Shown: positions 35,323 through 36,771 of the stretch, piece after piece
Layout of the letters: each line of letters begins with the position of its first letter
Numbering within the stretch: the first letter of the stretch is position 1
Source of the DNA: Nitrospirota bacterium
GTDB lineage: Bacteria; Nitrospirota; Leptospirillia; Leptospirillales; Leptospirillaceae
Length of the DNA: 64,000 bases
Assembly (NCBI GenBank): GCA_021810805.1
Contig: JAJZHW010000004.1
Location: forward strand, 1-64,000
Direction: 5' to 3'
The notes under the pieces: model-generated
The model's database searches: none
Told to the model about the DNA's origin: nothing
The model's input: the letters and a program-made list of their open reading frames with translations, nothing else
Translations under genes and position numbers: made by a program

Positions 35323-35631
35323 GTGGCAAAGTCCCTGGAAAAAAGGCTCTTTCTCAAGATCGTCATGCCGGTGCTGGTTCTCGTCGTCATTTCGTGGGTC
35401 CTTTATACCGTCAAGGATCCCCTGATGAAGGGAGCCGCTTCCGTCGCCCTGATGTTCTTTCTGGCCTTTTCCTTCTTCATTCTCCGCAAGCAGTGGCAGG
35501 AGAGGGAGGACTTTAAGGTTCCCACCTGGCTATTCGTCACCCTGATCACCGTGTTGATCCTTTTCCTCACCGGAGTCGGTGTTCTGCCGATCGTCACCAT
35601 GTTCACAAAGCCTCCCTCCTCCTACCCCTGA
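35323..35631 (+). CDS. Small membrane protein of unknown function
   Basis: 102-aa ORF with about three hydrophobic segments, GTG start after an AAGGAG RBS. Confidence 0.6.
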   Translation: MAKSLEKRLFLKIVMPVLVLVVISWVLYTVKDPLMKGAASVALMFFLAFSFFILRKQWQEREDFKVPTWLFVTLITVLILFLTGVGVLPIVTMFTKPPSSYP

Positions 35632-35643
35632 GGAGGAGTTTTT
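35616..35643 (+). terminator. Rho-independent terminator
   Basis: CTCCTCCT-ACCCCTG-AGGAGGAG then TTTTT. Confidence 0.78.
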
Positions 35644-35714
35644 GACACCTCTTGTGGTGTCGATGCCACAAAAGGCCGGGGAAATCTGACACAGGCCGTG
35701 GTGATTCTGCCACA
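35643..35714 (+). promoter_or_regulatory. Duplicated enhancer-like element upstream of lpxC
   Basis: TGACAC-N5-GTGGTG-N4-TGCCACA at 35643-35670 and again at 35687-35714 (44 bp period). Confidence 0.65.
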
Positions 35715-35775: not shown

Positions 35776-35793
35776 TTGGCATGAAGATTGCAT
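35776..35793 (+). promoter_or_regulatory. Candidate sigma-54 (-24/-12) promoter upstream of lpxC
   Basis: TTGGCATGAAGATTGCAT versus consensus YTGGCACGNNNNTTGCW; correct GG/GC spacing. Confidence 0.68.
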
Positions 35794-35847
35794 GACCTCC
35801 GTTGTGAAACGTGTCGGTCTGCCAACTGCAGGGAACGGAGGGAAGAG

Positions 35848-36771
35848 GTGAGGCTTCAGAAGACGCTCGTTCGACCGGTTGAAATCCGGGGGGTGGGGCT
35901 GCATTCGGGACGGGAGGTCTCCCTTGTCCTTCGTCCGGCTCCGGAGAACCATGGTATTGTGTTTCACCGCTCCGATCTGGGGTCGGTGTACATCCCTGCC
36001 CACGTTCGCTTTGTCAGCCGTGAACGCTCGACTCTCTCGACGGTTCTCTTTGACGGTCAAGCAACGGTTCAGACAGTCGAGCATCTTCTTTCCGCCCTCT
36101 CCGGACTTTCTGTGGATAATGTCATTGCCGAAGTGGACGGGGCAGAGCTTCCCATCCTCGACGGCTCCGCGAAAAATGTCATCGAGGCCATTCGGGAGGG
36201 GGGGCTCTGCGAGCAGAAAAAGAAGCAGTCCTTCTATCGCATCACCCGCCCGGAAGAATTTTCCTCTGAGGGACGATTCCTCTCGGTGGCTCCATCGGAG
36301 ACCTTCGAGGTGGATTATGAGATCGATTTCGGAGGGGGACTGGTGCAGCGCGCGGTCTTTACCCTTTCAGAAGGTCTCTACGACGAGGAGATTTCCCGGG
36401 CTAAGACCTTCTGCTTCGAGTCCGACATTCAGAAGATGCGTTCGATGGGTCTTGCCAAGGGGGGAAGTCTCTCCAATGCCTTGGTCATGGGGAAGGACGC
36501 CCTGATCAATCCGGAGCAGCAGACCTACGACGATGAATTTGTCCGGCACAAGATTCTCGACTTTCTCGGGGATATGCGCCTTTTGGATCGTCCGATCCTG
36601 GGACGGTTTGTCGTTCGCCGAGGAGGACATGCCTTCCATACCGATTGTCTGCGGACGCTTTGGGAAAGTGGGAACCTGAGCCTTCCTTTGGTTCCCTCCC
36701 CCCAGCCTTCGGCCCCCTCCGCCTCCCGGAGCCGAAAAGGGGCGGTCTCTCTGAGCCCGGCCCTCCGTTAA
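35848..36771 (+). CDS. lpxC: UDP-3-O-acyl-N-acetylglucosamine deacetylase
   Basis: QKTLVRPVEIRGVGLHSGREVSLVLRPA, TVEHLLSALSGLSVDN, ELPILDGSA; GTG start with GGAGGGAAGAG RBS. Confidence 0.94.
   Translation: MRLQKTLVRPVEIRGVGLHSGREVSLVLRPAPENHGIVFHRSDLGSVYIPAHVRFVSRERSTLSTVLFDGQATVQTVEHLLSALSGLSVDNVIAEVDGAELPILDGSAKNVIEAIREGGLCEQKKKQSFYRITRPEEFSSEGRFLSVAPSETFEVDYEIDFGGGLVQRAVFTLSEGLYDEEISRAKTFCFESDIQKMRSMGLAKGGSLSNALVMGKDALINPEQQTYDDEFVRHKILDFLGDMRLLDRPILGRFVVRRGGHAFHTDCLRTLWESGNLSLPLVPSPQPSAPSASRSRKGAVSLSPALR

Follow-up and report, generated by a model that had tools for sequence, protein, structure and literature searches.

A predicted sigma-54 enhancer array upstream of lpxC in Nitrospirota

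In this study, we analyzed a repeated sequence upstream of lpxC in a 64-kb window (the whole stretch of Nitrospirota DNA considered here) and conclude that it is very probably an enhancer, a row of upstream activating sites at which a sigma-54 activator (bEBP) would switch on a promoter that drives lpxC as a single gene. This gene encodes the committed step of outer-membrane lipid A synthesis, a pathway that in E. coli is set mainly by degradation of LpxC. The proposal of the preliminary description that the repeats are enhancer-binding-protein sites is strongly supported, as far as sequence can speak to it, by their distance from the promoter, their helical phase, the sigma-54 promoter of lpxC, and their conservation in relatives.

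The dyad array and the lpxC promoter

The lpxC region contains the following features, with dyad distances counted from the dyad start to the first T of the -24 element (TGG).

35323-35631, plus strand: small membrane-protein ORF of 102 aa, the upstream neighbor of lpxC
35616-35638, plus strand: terminator-like hairpin, an 8-bp stem followed by TTTTT, ending the upstream gene
35632-35649, no strand: degenerate putative outermost dyad, starting 145 bp before TGG and fitting the dyad register
35643-35649, no strand: TGACACC, right half-site of the outermost dyad and first block of copy 1 in the preliminary description
35653-35670, no strand: dyad A, TGTGGTGTCGATGCCACA, at a distance of 124 bp, with no mismatches to TGTGG-N8-CCACA
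35676-35693, no strand: dyad B, CCGGGGAAATCTGACACA, 101 bp upstream, with a degenerate left half and the right half TGACACA at 35687-35693
35697-35714, no strand: dyad C, CGTGGTGATTCTGCCACA, at a distance of 80 bp, inside the phylum-wide modal distance of 78-83 bp
35777-35791, plus strand: predicted sigma-54 promoter (-24/-12), TGGCATGAAGATTGC, an exact match to the consensus TGGCAY-N5-TTGC
35848-36771, plus strand: lpxC, UDP-3-O-acyl-GlcNAc deacetylase (PF03331, E=9e-90)

Because the gene upstream ends in a terminator-like hairpin, lpxC would have a promoter of its own, from which transcription is predicted to start near 35803. The true start codon of lpxC is most likely the GTG at 35848, which is preceded by a GGAGG ribosome site and gives an N-terminus that agrees with those of orthologs; it is preferred over the TTG at 35788 because the latter falls within the -12 element. 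The 102-aa upstream ORF had no match in a Pfam search, and the same ORF neighbors lpxC in most genomes of the window's family. An archaeal-type phosphoenolpyruvate carboxylase gene (PF14010, 33722-35284) lies two genes upstream of lpxC.

The repeat had been described as an exact pair of a three-part element, TGACAC-N5-GTGGTG-N4-TGCCACA, with fixed blocks and spacer lengths but different spacer bases. Both copies (35643-35670 and 35687-35714) are indeed free of mismatches and offset by 44 bp, and their spacer bases differ. With up to three mismatches allowed, these are the only two matches in the window (mean of 0.01 in shuffled windows), and a scan of the host assembly (1.87 Mb, 88.7% complete) at the same tolerance found no third copy, while the reversed-pattern control gave no matches. 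The three-part block did not hold up as the functional unit. What is conserved in relatives is instead an 18-bp dyad, TGTGG-N8-CCACA, and the exact three-part block is not kept even in the closest relative, G015. Each three-part copy consists of the right half of one dyad plus the entire next dyad, and its two occurrences reflect the periodicity of the array, which repeats about every two helical turns. TGACAC is thus the half-site of a neighboring dyad and lacks conservation ahead of the first copy. The putative site is therefore taken to be the 18-bp dyad, with the consensus TGTGK-N8-MCACA. What looked like an exact duplication is better described as repeated putative binding sites than as a recent duplication, since the spacers differ and G015 has only one full dyad copy; the differing spacers and the varying number of good sites among close relatives argue that the array was kept or built by selection.

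The dyads lie about two helical turns apart (21-23 bp) on one face of the helix. Counting from the -24 element, they start at 80, 101 (half), 124, and 145 bp (weak), and at least two helically phased dyads (124, 101 [half], and 80 bp) occupy the region about 80-150 bp upstream. The individual sites differ in quality. Dyad A has counterparts at 123-124 bp in G015, G008, G013, G009, G017, G016, and G011. Dyad B is weak when taken alone (rank 47-192 in the window); its orthologs are TGTGGAAAATCTGACACA, also at 101 bp, in G008 and a CGTGG form in G013. The outermost dyad also scores weakly, ranking 13-93 in the window depending on the matrix; its half-site is not conserved in G015 and G008, and the same place in G009 reads TGCCAC-N5-GTGGCA.

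A weight matrix built from 21 sites of other families, with no members of the window's family, ranked the dyad at 35697 first and that at 35653 second among the 63,983 positions of the window. A family matrix that excluded the window's species placed the same two dyads on top, with dyad A at rank 1. The rule for picking dyads was framed after the window's family had been viewed, so this matrix test is independent in species and not in concept.

Sigma-54 promoters require a bound activator. We propose a model, with looping and oligomerization steps taken from established sigma-54 biology, in which each 18-bp dyad would be read by a dimer of a bEBP with a Fis-type HTH. Since the sites lie on one helix face 21-23 bp apart, the dimers could assemble cooperatively, upon phosphorylation, into an AAA+ oligomer, which would loop to the closed complex of RNA polymerase-sigma-54 at the -24/-12 elements, and ATP hydrolysis by the bEBP would then open the lpxC promoter. 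A search for an IHF-like site between the enhancer and the promoter, with up to two mismatches, found none.

Conservation at lpxC and size of the regulon

When the lpxC regions of the window's family were fetched and oriented alike, the dyads and the sigma-54 promoter were found at lpxC across 18 family genomes, and the best dyad exceeded shuffled sequences at p<0.05 in 17 of the 18. The 18-bp dyad recurs as TGTGGCATTGATGCCACA in G015, TGTGGCAGACCTGCCACA in G008, TGTGGCAAAAATGCAACA in G009, TGTGGCGGAGTTACCACA in G004, and GGTGGCATTTTTTCCACA in G017. About 22 bp further on, relatives carry a second dyad, often weaker, that ends in TGACACA or TGCGACA. The site at 80 bp is not universal in the family, and the sites of most relatives lie at 101-124 or 112-138 bp. 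Both dyads are inside a longer inverted repeat, GGTGGCATTTTTTCC ... GGAAAAAATGCGACAC, in one clade of the genus (L008, L009, and L011), and this repeat is conserved beyond the need of the sites.

To look past the family, we located LpxC in 193 of 197 phylum genomes and inspected 53 regions upstream of lpxC, drawn from roughly two dozen other families. A sigma-54 promoter matching 10/10 consensus positions is present in 37 of these 53 regions (0.06 expected from shuffles). In 20 of 33 high-scoring cases, the best-scoring TGT-N12-ACA dyad was placed 78-83 bp ahead of the TGG (binomial p ~1e-17, an overstated value because the loci are treated as independent). An ungapped promoter-anchored profile of 18 loci, made with no selection for dyads, has as its most informative upstream column -63 C, in the right half-site of a dyad at -79, and next -78 G, in its left half-site. 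Half-site variants TGTGT and TGTTG were seen on direct inspection of lpxC loci. Two strong TGTTGT-type dyads 32-34 bp apart are found upstream of lpxC at L131, L132, and L214 (families f24 and f28), at about 110 and 140 bp or at 133 and 165 bp, a spacing of three turns instead of two. At L206 (G057, family f15), the lpxC promoter has an intact -24 element, a degenerate -12 element, TGGCATTATTTTTGT, and a TGT-N12-ACA dyad upstream; this may be a decaying or altered sigma-54 promoter. By this comparison, the predicted lpxC switch is conserved across nearly the whole phylum, and phylogenetic footprinting, which the preliminary description had put forward as a check, thus recovered the dyads and the sigma-54 promoter at lpxC in close relatives as well as in other families. 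That description would have given up its reading if two things were found together, a lack of other genomic copies and a lack of conservation at lpxC. Of these, the lack of copies holds, and the lack of conservation clearly does not.

The wider copies that a genome-wide scan might have revealed were not found, and a multigene regulon is not visible. Across 21 family genomes, all four exact matches to the stricter dyad TGTNGCA-N4-TGCNACA are located at lpxC; one-mismatch matches add three more lpxC loci, with a total that is not above the reversed-pattern control. In the 197 phylum genomes, this strict pattern had no association with lpxC outside the window's family and is too strict given the TGTGT and TGTTG variants. 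The loose dyad TGTGG-N8-CCACA with one mismatch gave 36 matches genome-wide versus 33 in the control, which is background, and so it cannot define a regulon alone. The enhancer thus looks, from the distribution of its sites, to serve essentially lpxC alone.

An association of the dyad with other -24/-12 promoters was also sought, and nine other exact sigma-54-like sites in the host genome, some of them within coding sequence, had no nearby dyad. Several exact sigma-54 promoters were noted elsewhere in this genome. One, TGGCATCCCTTTTGC (L061, G000:C10:17757-17771), precedes a cytochrome bd-like oxidase gene that is divergent from a PAS-domain bEBP gene, likely a bEBP/target pair. Another (L062, G000:C16:20072-20086) precedes genes for a small CxxC protein and an IscA-like protein, with a palindrome, CGTTTCAGTACGAAACG, upstream to which a different bEBP may bind. 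A third, TGGCATGTCTATTGC (L069, G000:C21:40829-40843), lies upstream of flagellar rod genes (flgF/flgG-like).

Candidate activators and alternative readings

The host genome encodes RpoN (C19:252564) and six bEBPs with strong Sigma54_activat matches: NifA (above the cut-off), an NtrX-like regulator with an NtrY-like kinase, a flagellar FlrC-like regulator, two PAS-domain bEBPs, and the member of a kinase/lipoprotein/regulator operon (C12). We compared these with the bEBPs of six other genomes, all from outside the large family f10, with four of the sampled bEBP loci giving no full ORF. Only the NtrX-like regulator is represented by an ortholog in each of these six genomes (clade support 100/98), and these orthologs share a similar recognition helix, [DE]R[ST]xL[HY][RK][RK][IL]. 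For NifA, the PAS-domain bEBP near trpE, the FlrC-like regulator, and the C12 regulator, two or more of the sampled genomes had no clear ortholog in each case. Within the window's family, the NtrX-like ortholog is present in 16 of 21 genomes, and the remaining five genomes are 66-81% complete.

Because its orthologs are present in the sampled lineages that carry the lpxC enhancer, the NtrX-like response regulator (contig C8), whose partner is the NtrY-like membrane kinase, is our leading candidate for the activator and plausibly fills this role; the argument is one of orthology and assumes that the enhancer has kept one and the same regulator since the common ancestor. The C8 protein scored 475 bits against the NCBIfam NtrX model NF051870, whose cut-off is 600, and is called NtrX-like only. 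With an NtrY-like membrane kinase as its partner, the signal would be expected to come from the envelope or from redox state. A search for autoregulation found no dyad upstream of any of the six bEBP operons, the NtrX-like operon included.

A less probable reading is that the same enhancer is served by another bEBP, either the C12 response regulator, whose operon resembles glrK-qseG-glrR, or the PAS-domain bEBP near trpE. GlrR/QseF recognizes TGTC-N10-GACA, with an identical 18-bp geometry (PMC8745638), the kinase/lipoprotein/regulator order of the C12 operon is conserved throughout the window's family, and E. coli GlrR also serves envelope genes (PMC6075780). Against this, orthologs of the C12 and C16b regulators are missing from several genomes in which the enhancer is present at lpxC. 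The C12 regulator moreover reads GSFTSA where GAFTGA is expected, its GlrR score of 275 falls below the cut-off of 763, the lipoprotein of its operon shows no similarity to QseG, and the dyad has G at position 4, not C as in GlrR sites. E. coli GlrR matches all host bEBPs at 33-49% identity, and no GlrR ortholog was found in the host genome, where the best score against the GlrR model was 350 (cut-off 763). A GlrR identity of the C12 regulator was rejected on the basis of the scores, the GSFTSA motif, and the family-only distribution. The C12 protein itself (L053 3931-5370, G000:C12:131430-132866) is a family-wide GSFTSA bEBP with no ortholog outside the family, and its operon is followed by a gene for a hemerythrin-like GGDEF/EAL protein.

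The dyads could also be operators for a repressor or another regulator unrelated to sigma-54, as dyads alone do not specify a protein class and TGTGG-N8-CCACA could be read by other dimeric regulators. We consider this improbable, since throughout the phylum the dyads accompany a sigma-54 promoter, a promoter type that needs a bound activator, and lie at 78-83 bp or further from it with no promoter overlap. Least likely of all is a structural origin, as part of the upstream gene's terminator hairpin or as a leftover mobile or repeat element: a terminator-like hairpin does lie just upstream and both dyads form one larger inverted repeat in the G017 clade, but the terminator is a separate element, the genome holds two copies only, with differing spacers, and conservation tracks the half-site bases and the helical register.

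Related systems and implications

The closest precedent for a bEBP-served enhancer at lpxC is DVU2934 of D. vulgaris, a sigma-54 response-regulator bEBP with GAFTGA and a validated site upstream of lpxC. In that organism, lpxC (DVU2917) was the only DAP-chip target of DVU2934, whose motif was found only in two close Desulfovibrio relatives (Rajeev 2011, PMC3333781; PMC4641369). By sequence, lpxC likewise appears as the single target here, as the three-part element in the host and the exact strict dyads in the family occur only at lpxC. DVU2934 differs in belonging to another phylum and to an operon with a kinase and an HD-GYP regulator, and the likeness concerns the target and the regulator class; its motif is printed only as a figure. 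The GlrR/QseF sites of E. coli and Proteus are alike in being 18-bp dyads with TGT...ACA ends, several of them upstream of a sigma-54 promoter and with envelope-related targets. However, those targets are glmY and rpoE and not lpxC, and the window dyads read TGTG...CACA and CGTG...CACA and so depart from the GlrR/QseF consensus.

Two further systems touch on the same gene. In Leptospira, a sigma-54-type promoter is predicted upstream of lpxC (PMC12655853). The Leptospira genome has an NtrC-like EbpB (LIC_11549), and which of EbpB and EbpA acts on lpxC is not assigned there (PMC12655853). The best NCBIfam match of the host's NtrY-like kinase is the kinase family LIC_11548, at 283 bits and below the cut-off. 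The Leptospira case differs in that the lpxC promoter is predicted only and activator sites are not described. In a Rhodobacter sphaeroides ntrYX mutant, lpxC transcripts change 8.8-fold (PMC7240162), which similarly links an NtrX-type regulator to envelope synthesis. The effect in R. sphaeroides is, however, indirect and in the repressing direction, with no NtrX site at lpxC, and the proposed motif is GCA-N9-TGC, not TGTGG-N8-CCACA. We found no earlier report of an lpxC sigma-54 enhancer in Nitrospirota in the open-access literature. This kind of control is already known, and the phylum-wide case in Nitrospirota appears to be unreported.

If our reading is true, the array would place a transcriptional gate on lipid A synthesis, replacing or added to the control of LpxC by proteolysis that is known in E. 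coli. A deep-rooted lpxC enhancer in a whole phylum, together with the parallel in Desulfovibrio and probably that in Leptospira, suggests that signal-gated transcription of lpxC is widespread. An older proposal holds that sigma-54 controls the bacterial exterior (PMC3162934), and the lpxC enhancer supports it; what our analysis adds is deep, phylum-wide conservation and a named candidate activator. The result would tie outer-membrane synthesis in a concrete way to a conserved membrane two-component system, of which the NtrX-like part is a candidate, in bacteria that include leaching acidophiles and probably nitrifiers.
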